Part shown: in pieces, positions 429 through 12,549 of the stretch
Numbering within the stretch: the first letter of the stretch is position 1
Layout: each line of letters begins with the position of its first letter
Notes under the pieces: model-generated
What the model was told of the DNA's origin: nothing
Database searches by the model: none
What the model saw: the letters and a program-made list of their open reading frames with translations, nothing else
Translations under genes and position numbers: made by a program
NCBI GenBank assembly: GCA_017432685.1
Contig: JAFRIR010000125.1
Location: 1 to 64,000 of the forward strand
DNA length: 64,000 nucleotides
DNA from: Flexilinea sp.
GTDB lineage: Bacteria; Chloroflexota; Anaerolineae; Anaerolineales; Anaerolineaceae
Direction of reading: 5' to 3'

Positions 429-3400
429 TTATTCTTGTTTGACGCCTATGACGATGTGGTGATCGTCGCTTTCCCGCGTTTTTATGGTCTGCAGGGAATA
501 AGGTGTTGGCTGTCCGTTTCGCAGCTTGTGAAAGAGCAGCGCCATCGGCTCAGCCTGACCGATCCGGTGCAGCAGGTTGTCCTTGTCGGTTGCTTCTCTG
601 ACCTTGTCCCTGTCCTCATCACAGACAGTCTCCAGCAGTTTGCTGCGGGCTTCTGTAAAGAAGTCGATCCCGCCGGGGCGGATCTCGAGCTTGCCGTCCC
701 CGCCTGTAAAGAATTCCAAATAATAGTCTGTTGCCAGGTCTACATAGAAAATGCTCTCAAAGTTGCTGGTCAGCGCTTTCGAGATACTCATACAGGTCTT
801 TCGGATTTCCGGCGATACCATTGACTTTTCCTTCGCACGTTCGATCAGGAAGCGGTCGAAGTCCGCAGGCGGCACAGGCTTGGAGAAGTAATAGCCCTGT
901 ACCAGGTCGCAGCCCATGGCTTTGAGCACCAGATATTGCTCCTCGGTCTCCACACCTTCTGCCACTACGGGAACGTGCAGATAGTCCGCAATGTCAATGA
1001 TCAGCTCGATCATGCGCACGTCCCGATTCTCTCCGAAGGCACTGCGAACGAAGCTCATATCCAGCTTCAGAGCATCGATGGGCAAGTGAGACAGCATCCC
1101 AAGCGATGAATAGCCGGTTCCGAAGTCATCCATCTCAATTCGAAAACCCATGCCCATCCCGCGCAGCTCCTTGGCCGTAGAAATCACCTGGGCTGAATCA
1201 CCTGTATAGGCAGACTCCGTGATTTCCAGAGCGAGGTCATTTGCGCTGAGTCCATATTCATTCAGGATCTCCTGGAAGATATTTTTCAGATTTGGTGTCA
1301 GCATGTCGATGCGGGACACATTCACAGAAACCGGCACGGAATAACCAAGCCGATCTTTCCAATCCCGAATCCTCGCGGCAGCTTCGCGCCACACATACTG
1401 ATCAAGATCCAGTATGAGGCCGTTGTTCTCCAGCAGCGGAATGAACACTGCCGGACTGATCATTCCCAGTTCAGGATGATCCCAGCGTACCAGAGCCTCC
1501 GCACTTGCGAGCAGTGGTTTGTCGGTGCGAATGTCAAACTTGGGCTGGAAGTATACCATGAAACGGTTATTTCTCAGTGACGGCTTGAAGTCCTCCAATA
1601 AGCGTGCCCTGTACAGTTCAGCCTCGTGCATCTCGTTGTTGTAGATCCCGACAGGTTTTAAATAACCGCTCTTGACTGCATTCGCAGCAGTTTTGGCATA
1701 ATCAAATCGGCGTTCGATTTCAAGCATCTTGTTTACGTTTGCATAGACGCCCAGGCGCAGCCGCACACGGTTCTCGGAAACGTCCTCGCCGGTCAGACCA
1801 TCTGATGCTTTGTCCAATATCGTTTCATAATCTTCCCTGTGCGGGCAATAGATGAGGAAGGTGTCTGCGCCTCGGCGGCAGCCTACGCCTCCTAACTCAC
1901 GGGAAATCTGACGAACCCTGGCGCCGATCCGGGCAAGAACACTGTCTCCGTACTGCTTTCCATAGCGTTCGTTGAGAACATGGAAATCGTTGACATCCAG
2001 GACAACGGCATCCATTGGCATATCGGTGTAGTGCTGATCGTACATCCGGACGTAACGGAGGAAGTAGTCCATGTTGAAAAGATTTGTCAGGCTGTCGCGC
2101 TCGGTCGTCTCAATGATGTTCCGCTTCTCTGAAAGCTCAATACATCGATTCACACGTGCCTGAACGATCTCCACTGTGGGATAGGGTTTGGGGATAAAGT
2201 CCATCGCACCGTATTTCAAGCATTCGACCTCTGCACTCTGGTCTGCGGTCATCACGATAACAGGAATATCCTTTAGTTCTTTTTCTTCTTTCATTACCTT
2301 CAGCACTTCCATACCGCTGAGCCGCGGCATCTGAAGATCAAGCAGGACAATAGCTAAATCCTCGCGATGAGCCTTGATCACCTCCAGAGCTTCGATGCCG
2401 TCGGAAGCGTACAAAACTTCATAACCATATGAGAGCATATTCCCAAGTATCATTTGATTGATCTGCTCATCCTCAACAATGAGAATATGCCGTTTGAGCC
2501 GCAGGATGTCTGTGTTATCATTTACTGCAAAGAGAGGTTTCGCTGCAGTTTCAAAGTCATCCCGGGTGGCAGCTCCCATGCCTTTGAGCAGCTGTTTCTC
2601 CTCATACATCAAAGAATCCGCCCGTTCAAACACATCATGGAAACGGGTATCCTTGCCCGGCTGGTAATCTGAAAGACCACCCGAGATAACTACATCCTCG
2701 GCGCTGATGTGTGCCACGGAACGATCATGAAGAGCCAGCAGCAGTTCTTTGCGGATCAGGTAATCCCGTCCTGTCAGGATCACAACGAACTCGTCGCCGC
2801 CTGTTCTGAATACCGGGCTGTGCTGGAAGATGTCACAGATCATCTGGCTGGCTTTGATGATGTACTCGTCACCTGCCTTGTGTCCAAGGGTATCGTTGAT
2901 TTTCTTTAAACCATTCACATCGCAGACAACGACAGCAAATCTCTCCTCTGTCTTCTCCGCGATCGCCCTGTCAAAGTCTTTTTCGCGCAGGAGAAATGCA
3001 TGTTTGCTTTTTACGCCGGTCAAGGGGTCTGTGAAAGCGACTGTGGTTGCCTGATCACGTTCCTCAACTGCTTTTTTCTCCCACTTCTGCTGGGATTTAT
3101 AGTTAGCGAGAAGTACGATGAGCGAAAGGCCAAAGAGGCCGGTGATAAGCAGTCCGCTGAGGTTATCCGAATTATGGAGCCGATTCCGCTGAAGTTCTAT
3201 GAACTCCTTTTTGTCCAATGCGAGCATCTCACTGTCTGCCGTGCCATCCATATAGCTGTAGATATCATCGATAACAGCATCCCCCCGGCTTTCACTTGTA
3301 CGCTCTGTCAAGGTCATCGCCATGAGAACGATGAACGCCAGCAGCGCCATCCAGACGATAATTGCTTTACCGAATTTCCTTGCGTGATCCTTGCGGATGA

Positions 3401-4799
3401 CCCGGTTGAAAAATAAGAGACCTATCAGCGTCCAGACTGTCATTAGCGCATAGGTTTCTGTCTCGATCGTATGGTCATAGAAGAAACTGGGGAACAGAAG
3501 GAATACCAGGAAAATGGCCAGAATGATCATGCAAATGCCGCTGAGGATCCGATTTTTCAGGCTGCCTTCCTGTTTTGATGCTTTAAAAACTGCTGCAGAG
3601 GCAAACCCGTAAAGTATGGTCGCTCCGATCGTGGTGGTGTCCACGATCCAGCCTATTGGCGTTCTGCCCAGGAATGGAATCGGAAGGGAAATCAGCAAAA
3701 TCAGGATGATGGAATTTTCGGGTATCTGTTTGTCGCTGAGCTTTGCATAGTGCTCAGAGAGGATCCCGTCCTGGGCCACGGCATAGCACAGGCGGCTGAC
3801 GGTGCGCAGCATGCCGATCAGACTGGTAAGTATGAGGGCCAGAAGGGACGCCATCAGAATATAAATGCCCGGGTTTCCAAGGTAATAGTGTGCGGCATAG
3901 AAAGCAGGCAGTCCTGCAATCCCTTCAAATTCATCCAAACGACGAATATAATCCAACCAACCGGAGCAGCCCTCCGGGTAGGCTGAAATACTCATCAGGA
4001 TGATAAAGATGTACAGCAGGGTGGTGACAACCAGGGAGATCACAAGGACGCGGAACATATTGCTGTGCTTGAACTTATATTCTGCGGCAGAGTGAGAAAC
4101 GCTTTCAAAGCCGATAAAAGCCCATGGTGATATGAAAGCAATGCGCAAGACTTGTCGAAGAGCGTTCTTGTCCGGAAGAAAGGCTGGTTCCATCGTCATT
4201 CCGCTGGAATGATGCCCCAGCATGGCTGCTACAAAACATACGGTGATGCCGACGGTAAAGGTCAGTACAAGTATTTCCATGCATCGGGCTATAGCTTTTT
4301 TGCTTTTTATACATAACAATCCGACAAGTCCGATCACGATGATGGTTGTCAGAACTTCGCCCAGATAAACCTCATACCCAAAGACCGTATAGAGATAGCC
4401 AAACCGCAGTATGCCCTGCAGAAAGTATCTTGTAAACAAGGGAATGCTTGTGGCATTCGCCCAAAAGATGGCAATGTAGACCAGAAACATGAACCATGCC
4501 GCCAGAAAGGCACGGTCATAGCCAAATATGTACTTCACATAGTTATAGAGACCGCCGGTACCGGGGTAGCGATTCGCCAGAAAGTGATAGTGGTGGGCGA
4601 CCATCAGCATCATGATGAACCCAATCAGCAGACCGAGAATCGAGCCCAGCGGACCTGCCTGAGAGAGATAGGTCTGGCTGGTTACAACAAGCGCCCCCCA
4701 GCCAATGGCGCTGCCCACAGACAATGCCCAAACGGCCAGAGGTGAAAGATAAGGCTGCAGGCCGCTGCCCTTGTTACCGACGGTTGTCTGTTTTTCCAC
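429..4799 (-). CDS. APC permease fused to GGDEF, REC, degenerate GGDEF and EAL domains
   Basis: A 1456-residue fusion (1481 from the upstream ATG at 4874). Numbering below is from that ATG. Residues about 40-520 are an amino acid/polyamine permease-type membrane domain with many hydrophobic segments. An extra membrane segment at about 571-591 leads to an intact diguanylate cyclase domain (GGDEF at 692-696). Next comes a response-regulator receiver domain (acidic pocket E801/D802, phospho-acceptor D846, K896). A second GGDEF domain follows whose signature is GADTF (1002-1006), probably catalytically dead. Then a complete-looking EAL phosphodiesterase domain (EAL 1126-1128, DDFGTGYSS at 1249) and a ~120-residue PAS-like tail. 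I prefer the GTG at 4799 because GGAGG lies 7 nt upstream; the ATG at 4874 has no ribosome site. The product probably adjusts c-di-GMP in response to a transported or bound ligand; ligand and net activity cannot be read from sequence. Confidence 0.88.
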   Translation of the reverse strand: MEKQTTVGNKGSGLQPYLSPLAVWALSVGSAIGWGALVVTSQTYLSQAGPLGSILGLLIGFIMMLMVAHHYHFLANRYPGTGGLYNYVKYIFGYDRAFLAAWFMFLVYIAIFWANATSIPLFTRYFLQGILRFGYLYTVFGYEVYLGEVLTTIIVIGLVGLLCIKSKKAIARCMEILVLTFTVGITVCFVAAMLGHHSSGMTMEPAFLPDKNALRQVLRIAFISPWAFIGFESVSHSAAEYKFKHSNMFRVLVISLVVTTLLYIFIILMSISAYPEGCSGWLDYIRRLDEFEGIAGLPAFYAAHYYLGNPGIYILMASLLALILTSLIGMLRTVSRLCYAVAQDGILSEHYAKLSDKQIPENSIILILLISLPIPFLGRTPIGWIVDTTTIGATILYGFASAAVFKASKQEGSLKNRILSGICMIILAIFLVFLLFPSFFYDHTIETETYALMTVWTLIGLLFFNRVIRKDHARKFGKAIIVWMALLAFIVLMAMTLTERTSESRGDAVIDDIYSYMDGTADSEMLALDKKEFIELQRNRLHNSDNLSGLLITGLFGLSLIVLLANYKSQQKWEKKAVEERDQATTVAFTDPLTGVKSKHAFLLREKDFDRAIAEKTEERFAVVVCDVNGLKKINDTLGHKAGDEYIIKASQMICDIFQHSPVFRTGGDEFVVILTGRDYLIRKELLLALHDRSVAHISAEDVVISGGLSDYQPGKDTRFHDVFERADSLMYEEKQLLKGMGAATRDDFETAAKPLFAVNDNTDILRLKRHILIVEDEQINQMILGNMLSYGYEVLYASDGIEALEVIKAHREDLAIVLLDLQMPRLSGMEVLKVMKEEKELKDIPVIVMTADQSAEVECLKYGAMDFIPKPYPTVEIVQARVNRCIELSEKRNIIETTERDSLTNLFNMDYFLRYVRMYDQHYTDMPMDAVVLDVNDFHVLNERYGKQYGDSVLARIGARVRQISRELGGVGCRRGADTFLIYCPHREDYETILDKASDGLTGEDVSENRVRLRLGVYANVNKMLEIERRFDYAKTAANAVKSGYLKPVGIYNNEMHEAELYRARLLEDFKPSLRNNRFMVYFQPKFDIRTDKPLLASAEALVRWDHPELGMISPAVFIPLLENNGLILDLDQYVWREAAARIRDWKDRLGYSVPVSVNVSRIDMLTPNLKNIFQEILNEYGLSANDLALEITESAYTGDSAQVISTAKELRGMGMGFRIEMDDFGTGYSSLGMLSHLPIDALKLDMSFVRSAFGENRDVRMIELIIDIADYLHVPVVAEGVETEEQYLVLKAMGCDLVQGYYFSKPVPPADFDRFLIERAKEKSMVSPEIRKTCMSISKALTSNFESIFYVDLATDYYLEFFTGGDGKLEIRPGGIDFFTEARSKLLETVCDEDRDKVREATDKDNLLHRIGQAEPMALLFHKLRNGQPTPYSLQTIKTRESDDHHIVIGVKQE

Positions 4800-4894
4800 T
4801 GTATTTCCTCCGATCACTGCATTCGGGATAATTCTTTGCACTTTAATCCTGAATACATTATAAGAAAATCCCATGGCAAAAGCAAGGGGGTAAA

Positions 4895-7987: not shown

Positions 7988-9310
7988 CTATTTCTTTTCG
8001 ATTACCGCGCTGTAGATGCTGCGAATGGCGGCTTCGTAGTCTTCTTCCGCGACACCGACGATGATGTTCAGCTCGCTGGAACCCTGGTCGATCATGCGGA
8101 TGTTGACGTTGGCGTCTGTGATAGCCTGGAAGATGCGGGCTGCGATGCCTTTGTAATAAGCCATTCCCTGACCGACGATGGCGATGAGGGCGATGCCGTC
8201 CTCTACATAAAGCGTATCCGGCTGGACGGCTTCCTGTATTTCTGCCAGCACCTGATCACGGACCGGTTCCAGATCTTCGGTGCGTAAAATCAGGGACATG
8301 GTGTCGATCCCGGAAGGCAGATGTTCAAATGACAGACCGTGGGCAGCGATGATGTTGAGGATCTTGGCGGTGAATCCGACTTCACTGTTCATCAGATCCT
8401 TTTCGATCAGGATGGAGCTGAAGCCTTTATGCCCGGCGATACCGGTGACACTGCCCGGGTCGGCATTTTCCGGAAGATGCGGGATGATGAGAGTACCCGG
8501 GTCTTCCGGATCATTGGTGTTGCGGATGTTGATGGAAATATTCGCCTGTTGGACGGGGAAGACCGCATCTTCGTGCAGGACGGTCGCGCCCATGTAAGAA
8601 AGCTCCCGCAGTTCCCGATAGGTGATGATGCGGATCTGACGCGGGTTTTCAACGATACGGGGATCGGCGGCCATCATGCCGGAGACGTCGGTCCAGTTTT
8701 CATAAATATCTGCATGGACAGCGCGGGCGACGATGGACCCGGTGACGTCCGAACCGCCGCGGGAGAAGGTGTGGATCTTCCCGTTGGGAAGGGAACCATA
8801 GAACCCCGGGAGCACTGCGCGGAAGGTGACGGTGAGAACCTTTTTCAGGTCTTCTTTGGTTTTCTGGAAGTTCAGCGAACCGTTTTCGTTGAAGTGGATG
8901 TAATCTGCCGCATCAATAAATTTGTAGCCCAAATGGCAGGCAAAAACTTTCGCGCTCAGGTACTCTCCCCGGCTGGCCATATAGTCTTTTTCGGGCTCTT
9001 TCAGCAGATGCTGCCGGATCGTTTCGATTTCGCTGTCGATGTCAAAATCCAGTTCCAGATCGCGGATGATCTCCGCGAAACGTTCCCGGATCTGGTTCAG
9101 GGACGGTTCAAAATCTTCACCTTTGACTGCGGCGTTGTAGCATTGATAAAGAAGATCGGTGACCTTGATGTCATCGGAAGATCGTTTTCCCGGAGCTGAG
9201 ACGACGACATAGCGCCGGTGCTGGGATTGTTTGATAATAGCGGTGACTTTGCGGATCTGGTTGGCGTCCGCCATGGAGGTGCCGCCGAATTTCAAAGCGA
9301 TGGTTTTCAT
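7988..9310 (-). CDS. lysC: Aspartate kinase
   Basis: Phosphorylates aspartate, the first step towards lysine, threonine and methionine. 440 residues. The N-terminal KFGGTSMADANQ is the ATP-site signature, FSRGGSDVTGS lies in the substrate loop, and two ACT domains occupy roughly residues 300-440 (for example GMAYYKGIAARIF and VNIRMIDQGSSELNI), implying allosteric feedback. AGGAAAG lies upstream of the ATG. It is the last gene of the lysine-riboswitch operon, 68 bp after the M20 deacetylase gene. The monofunctional form with no homoserine dehydrogenase domain fits a lysine-dedicated enzyme. Confidence 0.93.
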   Translation of the reverse strand: MKTIALKFGGTSMADANQIRKVTAIIKQSQHRRYVVVSAPGKRSSDDIKVTDLLYQCYNAAVKGEDFEPSLNQIRERFAEIIRDLELDFDIDSEIETIRQHLLKEPEKDYMASRGEYLSAKVFACHLGYKFIDAADYIHFNENGSLNFQKTKEDLKKVLTVTFRAVLPGFYGSLPNGKIHTFSRGGSDVTGSIVARAVHADIYENWTDVSGMMAADPRIVENPRQIRIITYRELRELSYMGATVLHEDAVFPVQQANISINIRNTNDPEDPGTLIIPHLPENADPGSVTGIAGHKGFSSILIEKDLMNSEVGFTAKILNIIAAHGLSFEHLPSGIDTMSLILRTEDLEPVRDQVLAEIQEAVQPDTLYVEDGIALIAIVGQGMAYYKGIAARIFQAITDANVNIRMIDQGSSELNIIVGVAEEDYEAAIRSIYSAVIEKK

Positions 9311-9378
9311 TACTTACGTCTTTCCTGAGTCAGTAAAACTTTTCCGGCTCACTGGTTAGATTTTTTTTTGAAGTGACC

Positions 9379-10563
9379 TTATCTTACATCTGACTGCTGA
9401 GCACTGATCACTGAACACTGGTCACTTAAATATTGCTCTATTATATCAGCATGCAGGGCGGCAAGCCGGACGATTGTGAGCGGTTCGGGCAGGAATTTCG
9501 GGTTGTGCAGCGGGGCGCTGCAGCCTGCGCCGATGTGGAAGAAAGAGCCTTTTGCCGCGTCGATGAAACACCCGAAATCTTCCGTGGTCATGGTTGGATG
9601 TTCAAGAACACGGACGTTTTCGGGACCGAACAGGGCTTCAGCGGTTTTCTGGACATGACGGGTCTCTGCTTCGGTATTGACGATCCCGGCATAACTTTCC
9701 GTAATGCGTATTTCAGCTGTTGTACCGAACGAGTCTGAAATTTCCCTGATTGTTTTCTCGAAGATATTTTTCAGTTTTGCCCGGTCTTCCGGTCCGAGGG
9801 TGCGCATGATGCCGGAAAATTCTGCTTTGTTTGCAATGATGTTCCCTGCTGTTCCTGCATGAAGCATCCCGATGGAGAGGATCGCAGGATCTTTGATGTA
9901 CTTTGCGGGCAGAGAACGCAGTTCTGTGATCATGACAGCAGCGGCTGCCAGGGCATCGATTCCCTTTTCCGGCTGAGCGCCGTGAGCAGAACGGCCGTGG
10001 ACGGTGACCGTGAACATGTTGGATGCGGCATAAAATTTCCCGTACCGTACTCCGATCACACCCGCGGGCAGGTCCGGAGCAACATGAGCTCCGAAAACTG
10101 CTTCGACACCATCCATGCAGCCGGCTGCGATCATACGGGCAGCTCCGCCGGAACCTTCTTCATCCGGTTCAAAGAAGAATTTCACTGTTCCCGGGAGCGT
10201 TTCACGATCTTCGGTAAGGAGCATGGCGGCACCGAGCGCGGCGGTTGTGTGGACGTCATGCCCGCATGCATGCATGACACCCGGGGTTTCGGAAGCGAAC
10301 GAAGAGCCGCTGTCTTCGCTGACCGGCAGTGCGTCCATGTCTGCCCGAAGGGCGATGACAGGACCGGTTCTGCCGCCGGTCAGTGTACCGACGATGGCGG
10401 TTTCCGTAACACGCTGCGTTTCGATCCCGAGACTGTGAAGGGTCTTTTCCACCAGTTCCGCAGTGCGGTATTCATGGTTTCCCAACTCCGGATGCCGATG
10501 AATCTGCTCACGGATCGCAAAAAGTTCCGGAATATATGATTCAGCTCTTTCAAAAGTGTTCAT
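9379..10563 (-). CDS. M20D amidohydrolase, probable N-acetyldiaminopimelate deacetylase
   Basis: A 394-residue zinc-dependent M20D peptidase-family enzyme. Metal-site landmarks are visible: HACGHDVHT, FFFEPDEEGSGGA, the lid-domain VHGRSAHGAQPEKG and HIGAGCSAPLHNPKF. The family also includes hippurate and IAA-amino-acid hydrolases. The setting, downstream of dapH and overlapping lysA by ATGA (10560-10563), argues for deacetylation of N-acetyl-LL-diaminopimelate. The last ~12 residues are encoded by a heptanucleotide array (9399-9426), so the C-terminus has probably been changed by repeat insertion. The N-succinyl/acetyl aminotransferase of the pathway is not in the window. Confidence 0.85.
   Translation of the reverse strand: MNTFERAESYIPELFAIREQIHRHPELGNHEYRTAELVEKTLHSLGIETQRVTETAIVGTLTGGRTGPVIALRADMDALPVSEDSGSSFASETPGVMHACGHDVHTTAALGAAMLLTEDRETLPGTVKFFFEPDEEGSGGAARMIAAGCMDGVEAVFGAHVAPDLPAGVIGVRYGKFYAASNMFTVTVHGRSAHGAQPEKGIDALAAAAVMITELRSLPAKYIKDPAILSIGMLHAGTAGNIIANKAEFSGIMRTLGPEDRAKLKNIFEKTIREISDSFGTTAEIRITESYAGIVNTEAETRHVQKTAEALFGPENVRVLEHPTMTTEDFGCFIDAAKGSFFHIGAGCSAPLHNPKFLPEPLTIVRLAALHADIIEQYLSDQCSVISAQQSDVR
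9399..9426. repeat. Heptanucleotide tandem array inside a coding 3' end
   Basis: Four units: GAGCACT, GATCACT, GAACACT, GGTCACT. The complement matches the CAGTGAT-type units of the dapB-dapH array at 12562. It encodes part of the C-terminus of the M20 enzyme. Confidence 0.7.
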
Positions 10564-11819
10564 TCAAATTTGAACTCTTTGTCTACATCCAGTGTCGCAA
10601 AGTAATCCTGAACGCTCTGCGCCCGGCGGATCATTTGAAGCGTCCCGTCAGCGTGCATCAGGTACTCCGCGCAGCGCAGCCGCCCGTTATAGTTATATCC
10701 CATGGCGTGACCGTGGGCGCCGGCATCATGGATCACCAGCACATCACCGATTTCGGTGTGCGGAAGCGGACGGTCAACGGCGAATTTATCGTTGTTCTCA
10801 CAAAGCGCTCCGACCACATCCACCGTTTCGGCTGCAGGCAGGTCTTCTTTGCCACTGACTGTGATGTGATGGTAGGCGCCATACATGGCCGGTCGCATCA
10901 GGTCGGCAGGAGAGGCATCCACTCCGACATATTCTTTCCAGATGTGTTTTTTCCCGACAACAGTTGTCAGCAGGTAACCATGCGGGCCGGTGATAAAGCG
11001 GCCCATTTCGGTATATAACGGCAGTTCGATGCCGTTTGAACGCAGCATTTCTTCGTAAACCAGTCGCACGCCTTCACCGGCGGTTTTGATGTCAACTGCT
11101 CTTTCACCGGGACGATAGGGAATGCCGATGCCGCCGGCCATGTCAACGAAAGACAGTGTGATGCCGAGCGTTTCCCGAATTTCGAGTACAAGCCCGAAGA
11201 GTTCCCGCGCCAACGCCGGATAATAGCCCTGTTCCAGTGAACAGGATGTCAGCATGGCGTGAATACCAAGATGTGAGGCTCCCTTTTCTTTCAGTGTTTT
11301 GAGCGCCTGAAACAGCTGGTCCTTTTTCATGCCGAATTTAGTGTCGTACATATGCCCCATGATGGCGTTGGTTGCATAATTGAATTGCCCCGGGTTATAG
11401 CGGCAGCAAACTGTTTCGGGAATGCCGCAGGCATTTTCCAGGTTTTCGATTTGAGTCAGGTCATCCAGGTTGATGATCGCGCCTGCTTCCCTCGCAGTGC
11501 GATATTCGGCTGCCGAGGTCTCATTGGAGGTGAACATGATGCGCTGTCCGCTGATGCCGCTTCCCTTTGCCAGCAGGATCTCCGGAATGGAGGAACAGTC
11601 TGCCCCGCAGTTCATTTGCTCCATGATGCGCAGGATGGCGGGCGTCGGAGTGGCCTTGACAGCAAAATATTCCCGGAACCCGGGGTTCCAGCCAAAGGCA
11701 TTGTTGACAGCGCTGACCGTCTCACAGATCCCCGCTTCATCATAGACATAAAAAGGCGTTGGGTGTTTCCCGACCCAATTCTGTACCTGTTCAAAAGAAA
11801 ATGGGAGTGATTTCTCCAT
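10560..11819 (-). CDS. lysA: Diaminopimelate decarboxylase (divergent subgroup)
   Basis: PLP-dependent fold-type III decarboxylase giving L-lysine from meso-DAP. 419 residues from the ATG at 11819. FAVKATPTP carries the Schiff-base lysine, with DMAGGIGIPY, EMGRFITGPHGY and LCENNDKF as counterparts of the family's GGG, EPGR and CESxD motifs. HAMLTSCS replaces the usual HVGSQ, so this is a divergent branch. GGAGGT lies eight bases before this ATG; an upstream ATG at 11879 would read through a heptamer array and is unlikely. It overlaps the next gene by four bases (ATGA), so translation is probably coupled. Location after dapH supports the lysine role over other group-IV decarboxylases. Confidence 0.88.
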   Translation of the reverse strand: MEKSLPFSFEQVQNWVGKHPTPFYVYDEAGICETVSAVNNAFGWNPGFREYFAVKATPTPAILRIMEQMNCGADCSSIPEILLAKGSGISGQRIMFTSNETSAAEYRTAREAGAIINLDDLTQIENLENACGIPETVCCRYNPGQFNYATNAIMGHMYDTKFGMKKDQLFQALKTLKEKGASHLGIHAMLTSCSLEQGYYPALARELFGLVLEIRETLGITLSFVDMAGGIGIPYRPGERAVDIKTAGEGVRLVYEEMLRSNGIELPLYTEMGRFITGPHGYLLTTVVGKKHIWKEYVGVDASPADLMRPAMYGAYHHITVSGKEDLPAAETVDVVGALCENNDKFAVDRPLPHTEIGDVLVIHDAGAHGHAMGYNYNGRLRCAEYLMHADGTLQMIRRAQSVQDYFATLDVDKEFKFE

Positions 11820-11839
11820 CTTTCCTGACCTCCTTACAC

Positions 11840-11860
11840 CTGAAACCTGAAACCTATAAT
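11840..11860. repeat. Heptanucleotide array CTGAAAC between lysA and dapH
   Basis: CTGAAAC, CTGAAAC, CTATAAT. The same unit (complement or phase variant) recurs at 39214 and 49087. It fills most of the 34-bp gap between the two genes. Confidence 0.65.
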
Positions 11861-12549
11861 TTCCGCAGCATGGATTCAAGCGCAGTCTTCTGCGAAGTTC
11901 CCGCGTCTTTTTCCTTGATTATGCGAGCGGGACAGCCTGCTACGACCATGTTGGCGGGAACATCTTCAATCACGACAGCACCGGCAGCCACGACTGCGTT
12001 TTCACCGATATGGACTCCTTCAATGATCACAGCGTTGGCTCCGATCAAAACGTTGTCTTCTACGATGACAGGAGTGGCAGAAGCAGGTTCAATGACGCCG
12101 GCTAAAACGGCACCGGCCCCCACATGACAGTGTTTGCCGACGGTGGCCCGTCCGCCGAGTACCGCGCCCATATCGATCATGGTGCCTTCACCGACTACTG
12201 CGCCGATGTTAAGGATGGCGCCCATCATGATGACGGCATTCGGACCGATCTCAACCTGTTCGCGGATGATGGCGCCGGGCTCAATGCGCGCCGGGATGCC
12301 TTTCAGGTCGAGCATGGGGATGGCGCTGTTGCGGCGGTCATTTTCGATGACGAGGTCTGTAATTTTGTCTTCGTTTGCTTTCAGAATCGGTTCCAGTTCT
12401 TTCCATTCTCCGAAGACGATCCTGTCTCCGGCACCGAAGACTTTTGCGCTGCCCCAGTCGATCGGTGCGGATTCTTTGACGTAAAGCTTGACCGGCGTTT
12501 TCTTTTCCGCGCTGCCGATGTAGTTGATAATTTCCTGTGCATTCATCAT
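11854..12549 (-). CDS. dapH: 2,3,4,5-Tetrahydropyridine-2,6-dicarboxylate N-acetyltransferase
   Basis: Acetylates tetrahydrodipicolinate with acetyl-CoA, the step that defines the acetyl branch of DAP synthesis. 231 residues. The N-terminal helical part ([19 protein letters not shown]) is the DapH/YkuQ type, followed by a long hexapeptide-repeat left-handed beta-helix ([41 protein letters not shown]). The acyltransferase end [16 protein letters not shown] is typical. AGGAT precedes the tandem ATG ATG at 12549/12546. The region upstream of this start is a long heptanucleotide array. Confidence 0.92.

Follow-up and report, generated by a model that had tools for sequence, protein, structure and literature searches.

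The kinds of protein closest to the one described here are CbrA, Ks-Amt5 and the 5TMR receptors. CbrA has been called a rare 'transceptor' (PMC13022988), and the 5TMR receptors, which have their fold in common with the S-components of ECF transporters, carry GGDEF and EAL domains (PMC11109136; this and the other papers are cited from excerpts). Carrier-fused kinases are thus already known from CbrA and Ks-Amt5, and in these excerpts the whole-carrier fusions that we found described both feed histidine kinases. Here we describe a gene at positions 429-4799 of a 64,000-nucleotide stretch of DNA from Flexilinea sp. (assembly GCA_017432685.1, contig JAFRIR010000125.1, positions 1 to 64,000), hereafter the window. 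It joins an APC-type carrier fold to the enzymes of cyclic di-GMP (c-di-GMP) turnover. We read the predicted protein as a probable APC-fold receptor, i.e. a 'transceptor', that would set c-di-GMP turnover and receive a second input through phosphorylation of its REC domain; we give this reading a probability of about two in three. No report of an APC-GGDEF fusion stood among the papers listed in searches of an open-access library, subscription papers and domain-architecture databases being outside the search.

Domain architecture of the window protein

The gene and its parts are as follows.

429..4799, minus strand: whole coding sequence, 1456 amino acids and stop; open frame with a GTG start at 4799
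4807..4811, minus strand: GGAGG, ribosome-binding-site-like, 7 bases ahead of the GTG, read by eye
3366..4799, minus strand: APC-fold domain, residues 1-478, 12 membrane helices (TM1-TM12); TM1 GWG 33-35, TM6 PWAFIGFE 225-232
3033..3365, minus strand: coupler, residues 479-589, made of TM13, a short outside loop and TM14 (hydropathy, predicted helix)
2580..3032, minus strand: intact GGDEF domain (667-671) without the RxxD inhibitory site (Pfam, motifs)
2145..2492, minus strand: REC receiver, residues 770-885, phospho-acceptor D821 (Pfam, motifs)
1656..2102, minus strand: degenerate GGDEF domain (GADTF 977-981), residues 900-1048 (second Pfam GGDEF stretch, motifs)
870..1598, minus strand: EAL phosphodiesterase domain, residues 1068-1310, complete signature, E1101 of EAL (Pfam, motifs, fold search)
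432..794, minus strand: C-terminal tail, residues 1336-1456, possibly PAS-like (predicted strand/helix order)

The initial annotation gave 429-4799 as a single fused frame, which is right, and did not give the strand. On the minus strand no stop interrupts the frame between an ATG at 4874 and position 429, and the plus strand of the same segment does contain stops. We take the GTG at 4799 as the likelier start because the GGAGG precedes it at a distance of 7 bases. The phospho-acceptor first reported as D846 does exist; that number was counted from the ATG, and the residue is D821 when counted from the GTG.

Pfam recovers AA_permease_2 (E = 1.8e-27; 96.8 bits against a cut-off of 27), GGDEF in two stretches (8.3e-38), Response_reg (1.8e-22) and EAL (1.4e-62), each above its cut-off. 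The motif check likewise sees the intact first GGDEF, the GADTF of the second and the intact EAL that had been proposed. The APC domain has the 12-helix LeuT-type fold, and the SSF (SLC5) family is absent among the six Pfam families that match the window protein at E<=0.1. NCBIfam returns only sub-cut-off matches to several APC families for this domain, so the substrate is left unnamed. In the fold search the APC half matches AdiC, GkApcT (5oqt), y+LAT1, CAT4 and ApcT at 14-21% identity; the structural matches also include KimA, a transporter of the APC fold with c-di-AMP bound to it. The second half matches, by sequence and by fold, the GGDEF-EAL proteins PA0575, MorA, DosP and PdeA as well as the REC-EAL protein RocR. 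Note that the fold searches barely cover the coupler and the tail.

TM14 belongs to a single predicted helix (530-589) that continues into the cyclase. Pfam, which may hold no STAC model, reports no STAC linker, and two membrane helices occupy that place. As for the tail, its strand/helix order, judged by eye, is compatible with the PAS-like fold suggested earlier, but residues 1336-1456 have no Pfam match at E<=1. The tail was not found in 9 complete relatives with an otherwise identical architecture.

The fusion is real and forms one gene. The open frame runs through the junction between the permease and signalling parts, the third-position GC content is 0.598 in the permease part and 0.602 in the rest, and the architecture APC-GGDEF-REC-GGDEF-EAL is found in other genomes, two of the genus Flexilinea among them. 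The initial annotation had named a frameshift or assembly join, and absence of the fusion from every close relative, as what would overturn it; base composition and recurrence speak against both.

The family in other genomes

A scan of named genomes confirmed at least 586 stretches encoding relatives of the module, and the best 80 loci were fetched and examined. Architectures were called with profiles grown from the loci. Pfam served as a check on 15 APC-bearing proteins, the window protein and two more, and it agrees with the calls on 15/15 of the APC-bearing proteins. A search for the same architecture elsewhere, as the initial annotation had proposed, succeeds: 42 proteins in the best 80 loci are APC-GGDEF-REC-GGDEF-EAL (4 are cut by contig ends), one of which, in L051, has a changed first GGDEF motif. 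Another 34 proteins in these loci are APC-GGDEF, and again one of them, the third protein of L058, has a changed motif.

In a total of 107 loci, some of them duplicate copies, there are also 5 APC-HD-GYP frames and 11 APC-kinase frames (6 cut). APC-only frames number two, one cut by the locus end (L002) and one with the other domains in another frame (L063). The APC fusion with an HD-GYP-type domain is seen in L064 (1987-4377; HD_5 by Pfam) and, by a profile grown from L064, in L065, L069, L070 and L074; it adds a third mode of action on cyclic dinucleotides. Variants on these themes also occur. In L156 a PAS_4 domain sits between APC and GGDEF, and L155 (936-6305) holds a 1790-residue APC-kinase-REC frame with about 800 residues beyond REC that lack a Pfam match (E<=1). 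The frame is in pieces in L063, L116 and L118, which may be decayed genes or assembly errors.

According to the submitters' naming, the relatives belong to Lachnospiraceae, Ruminococcaceae/Oscillospiraceae, Erysipelotrichaceae, Acidaminococcaceae, Coriobacteria, Treponema and others. Most are metagenome-assembled genomes, many with rumen or gut sample names, and Lachnospiraceae bacterium AC2029 and Ruminococcus sp. YE71 are found as well. All 16 of the 16 genomes re-searched by locus have 1 to 4 matching stretches each, some of them fragments. In the family of AC2029, at least 21/250 genomes (AC2029 included) carry the module at E<=1e-80, and 23 of the 29 matches lie in frames of at least 751 amino acids, the other 6 in frames of 545 or fewer. 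In the window's own family, 5/147 genomes have the module; all five, the window's among them, belong to one genus. Across 400 sampled genomes of the window's phylum it was found in at least one, the window's own only. The values 21/250 and 1/400 are lower bounds, as few candidates were scored per genome.

Conservation of the APC module

Conservation was assessed on 100 fused modules and compared with 11 stand-alone rows, which represent 10 genes (L113 and L123 are one gene). G33, G35, N115, P225, W226, G230, F231, E232 and D387 are identical in all fused modules, and W34, W113 and H236 are found in 99, 98 and 94 of the 100, respectively. In all, 57 module positions are conserved at 97% or more, the break regions of TM1 and TM6 included. 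The outside loop averages only 0.38-0.39; being the least conserved part, it is thought unlikely to be a ligand domain.

The residues of TM1 and TM6 presumably line the pocket, as in APC proteins generally. We call the conserved core positions a predicted pocket on this ground and on the alignment to GkApcT, where T43 corresponds to W34 and F231 to W226. The TM1 motif is GWG in 99/100 fused modules, as against GSG in two ordinary APC permeases and GTG in GkApcT. In other words, the window protein lacks the small residue between the TM1 glycines, and this is true of the stand-alone GWG clade as well. We take that residue to mark the usual carboxylate site, which would thus be changed in the fused modules. 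Lys or Arg is found in 0/100 fused modules at each of the TM5 columns 176-190, a region that we assume to be the place of the proton-coupling lysine in ApcT-type carriers.

The stand-alone GWG relatives have about 450-505 residues and end after TM12. They retain GWG in 10/11 rows (one GCG), N115 in 9/11, W226 in 8/11, G230-F231 in 11/11 and D387 in 10/11, as well as R336, G378-R379 and W384 in 11/11. Since they carry GWG too, this motif is a feature of the parent clade and not of sensing. The differences lie elsewhere: position 232 is D in 10/11 stand-alone rows (one G), position 236 is Q in 11/11, and position 113 is P, S or C. TM13 is filled in 100/100 and TM14 in 97/100 fused modules, and neither is in the 11 stand-alone rows. 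In the exceptions for TM14, L106 and L056 keep a hydrophobic stretch before the kinase and L085 is short; among the stand-alone rows, L139 is partly filled in the loop between TM13 and TM14. The alignment thus suggests that E232, H236 and W113, together with the TM13-TM14 coupler, mark the fused side.

Catalytic and phosphorylation motifs

The first GGDEF domain was aligned in 48 rows, i.e. 46/75 stretches, the window and L010, with L051 and the third protein of L058 outside the set. The GGDEF signature is present in 48/48 rows, where D627, N635, D636, G639, H640 and G643 are invariant. At the place of the RxxD product-inhibition site we find [F/Y]xHS in the eight motifs listed, which cover 44/48 rows; the window has FQHS.

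The EAL and REC domains were aligned in 29 rows (28/30 tailed stretches and the window). EALVR, NVSR, KLD, EGVE and QG are found in 29/29 rows; DDFGTG occurs in 28 rows and DDFGSG in one, EITES in 27 rows with one EVTES and one ELTES. The motif at the second GGDEF position is never GGDEF among the variants listed (27/29 rows). Both enzyme domains thus look intact by motif, in agreement with the 'full c-di-GMP turnover module' of the initial annotation, a label that needs care as to the net output. The REC site of the window protein is complete, with D821, the acid pair 776-777, T851 and K871, and the phospho-accepting Asp, the Thr and the Lys are the same in 29/29 rows (acid pair ED in 28, DD in one). 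These residues agree well with the proposed second input through REC phosphorylation.

Reuse of the module and split forms

The APC module is a reusable input, found with GGDEF alone, GGDEF-EAL, hybrid histidine kinase and HD-GYP outputs. A tree was built by a quick method from 103 modules, 100 fused and 3 stand-alone; of its 100 inner branches 25 stay open, and flags mark three long end branches. It omits L063 (broken), L002 (cut) and the duplicates L023 and L084, and of the later-fetched loci it includes only L113-L115 and L117; the proteins of the window genome were entered once each, without their locus-cut copies. With five labels (four outputs and stand-alone), at least 14 changes are needed on this tree, the least possible being 4 and the shuffled mean 46.9. 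The label APC-GGDEF-REC-GGDEF-EAL needs 10 changes, at least 5 of these being forced by starred branches, and the kinase and HD-GYP labels need two each. That the module is reused with kinase, GGDEF-EAL and HD-GYP outputs is our argument for a sensory role.

The two halves of the window protein also occur apart. A separate REC-GGDEF-EAL gene on the same strand lies within 318 bases of 8/34 APC-GGDEF proteins (L019, L035, L047, L053, L062, L079, L083 and L085; two with a further GGDEF). Since the halves are found as neighbouring genes, the window protein resembles a fusion of an APC-cyclase with a REC-GGDEF-EAL response regulator whose GGDEF is degenerate.

Of the 42 proteins of the fused type, 6 have a two-REC hybrid kinase as a same-strand neighbour no more than 2 kb away (L026, L028, L038, L040, L052 and L084); two further loci of this type (L077 and L090) have one on the opposite strand. 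Genes resembling histidine phosphotransfer (Hpt) proteins were seen in 4 loci: L040 has a small gene whose HSLKGS motif, judged by eye, resembles that of histidine phosphotransfer proteins, and phmmer finds relatives of this gene in L034, L083 and L019. All neighbour counts are lower bounds, as many flanks are short. The kinase and Hpt-like neighbours hint at a phosphorelay to REC.

Proposed mechanism and alternative explanations

In the mechanism we propose, a small molecule from outside would bind in the central pocket of the APC-fold domain, and the change between inward and outward states would move TM12, TM13 and TM14. The long TM14 helix would pass this movement to paired GGDEF domains and so set c-di-GMP synthesis, the signal running from the membrane to the enzymes. 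The REC-GGDEF-EAL half would break c-di-GMP down, under the control of a partner kinase or phosphotransfer protein that phosphorylates D821; a further control of this half may be GTP on the degenerate GGDEF. The transceptor idea as first put forward is partly supported: the permease-fold input to a c-di-GMP module stands and the sensory role is backed by the reuse of the module, while uptake of a substrate, and its being an amino acid or a polyamine, are conjecture. A wider claim, namely that the fusions form a large undescribed class of receptors on the APC fold, we regard as an even bet. In such a class, a single module that binds the ligand and brings along its coupler (TM13-TM14) would be combined with outputs of several kinds (cyclase, cyclase and phosphodiesterase, HD-GYP or hybrid kinase) and would pass between unrelated gut bacteria; out of a carrier, fixed changes in TM3 and TM6 would have made a sensor for a common rumen nutrient.

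Several points weigh against the receptor reading. The conservation of the core can reflect transport as well as sensing, and the sensor-side residues E232, H236 and W113 may mark descent only, the stand-alone sample being small (10 genes). On the tree the window copy falls with two copies titled Clostridia (SH-aLRT support 98), apart from the copies of its genus mates, which could reflect exchange between species or a binning error (misbinned contigs). Only a minority of the proteins have kinase neighbours, and the window gene itself sits next to an L28-like gene at the end of its contig, where no partner can be read. The changed first GGDEF motif in at least two modules (L051 and the third protein of L058) means that cyclase activity is not universal in the family. 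Finally, in CbrA, the best-studied analogue, the activities did not change significantly on ligand in the excerpt cited (PMC7096432).

Transport by the APC domain may have been kept or lost. A true transceptor, which transports its ligand and signals, as reported for CbrA, is a sub-case of the receptor reading, so that its likelihood is contained in that of the latter and not additive; we hold it to be a serious possibility, a little short of even. CbrA binds and transports histidine (PMC7096432), and many core residues are common to the fused modules and their stand-alone permease-like relatives, but the sensor-side changes in TM3 and TM6 could mark a loss of transport, cf. the Amt domain of Ks-Amt5 (PMC8534201). 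The direction could also be reversed, i.e. the protein could be a transporter first, with the attached c-di-GMP enzymes and REC regulating uptake locally. KimA with its bound c-di-AMP is a precedent for a cyclic dinucleotide on the APC fold, and the core residues of the module are kept. Nevertheless, we consider this rather unlikely: hybrid kinases and HD-GYP domains on the same module look like outputs and not like regulators of a carrier, and both catalytic domains keep their motifs. The lack of Lys or Arg in TM5 is a weaker point, as sodium or exchange could serve.

That the APC domain is merely a membrane anchor or dimer platform, with REC and the tail in control, would suit a family for which no ligand is known and in which REC is a full control site. 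The 57 highly conserved positions, set against the variable outside loop, are unexpected of an anchor, and we judge this very unlikely. An assembly join or frameshift might be suspected of a gene at a contig end in an assembly of 151 contigs and 87% completeness; its probability is negligible, as it is refuted by the uniform third-position GC content, the frame open across the junction and the recurrence of the same junction in 42 of the best 80 loci, from other assemblies. The APC-fold receptor is the reading that we prefer.

Genome and neighbourhood

The window genome has three AA_permease_2 matches, all of them signalling fusions: an APC-GGDEF protein (L010), an APC-hybrid kinase (L011, L110) and the window protein. 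No ordinary AA_permease_2 member was found in the assembly, which is 87% complete. In L110 (3503-10625) of this genome, genes for a histidine kinase-REC protein, a REC-GGDEF-EAL protein and an APC-HisKA-HATPase-REC-REC protein follow one another on one strand and probably form a single signalling operon.

At the contig end, positions 26-244 on the plus strand encode a ribosomal protein L28-like product (by eye), convergent with the sensor gene. Further inside the window, a minus-strand cluster at 7988-12549 (aspartate kinase, M20 peptidase, pyridoxal-phosphate-dependent decarboxylase and DapH/DapD-like acyltransferase, all by eye) points to lysine/diaminopimelate synthesis. The window frames of at least 200 residues, the sensor excepted, were compared with 8 loci (L012-L015 and L108-L111). 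At E<=1e-20 a single one of them, the M20-peptidase-like frame, had a match (35%, in L015), so the lysine/diaminopimelate-type genes are not conserved neighbours in these loci. Clustering all reading frames of the 80 loci by single linkage gave no clue to the ligand, as it was swamped by antisense shadow frames.

Comparison with known systems

The stand-alone GWG permease-like proteins, close relatives without an output domain, differ from the fused modules in ending after TM12. AdiC, GkApcT, y+LAT1, CAT4 and ApcT also have no output domain, and GkApcT reads GTG where we find GWG. PA0575, MorA, DosP, PdeA and RocR resemble the second half, but their solved constructs, which alone were compared, are without an APC domain. 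Having several outputs and close stand-alone relatives, the module offers a natural comparison for the change from carrier to receptor, and its ligand, if found, would reveal which nutrient controls c-di-GMP in bacteria of the rumen.

As to the receptors, CbrA and CrbS are alike in having a whole LeuT-fold transporter domain at the N terminus of a signalling protein, according to excerpts of PMC13022988, PMC7096432 and PMC5715377. They differ in that this domain is SLC5 and not APC, in that a STAC linker takes the place of the two extra membrane helices, and in that the output is a histidine kinase and not c-di-GMP enzymes. Ks-Amt5 likewise uses a transporter domain as a receptor, with inefficient transport and specific binding in the excerpt cited (PMC8534201), but it belongs to the Amt family, has another ligand and feeds a kinase. 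The 5TMR receptors also employ a transporter-type membrane fold; theirs is a different and smaller one, structurally related to a transporter subunit and not to a whole secondary carrier. With the family described here, the fold of the APC amino-acid carriers enters c-di-GMP signalling.

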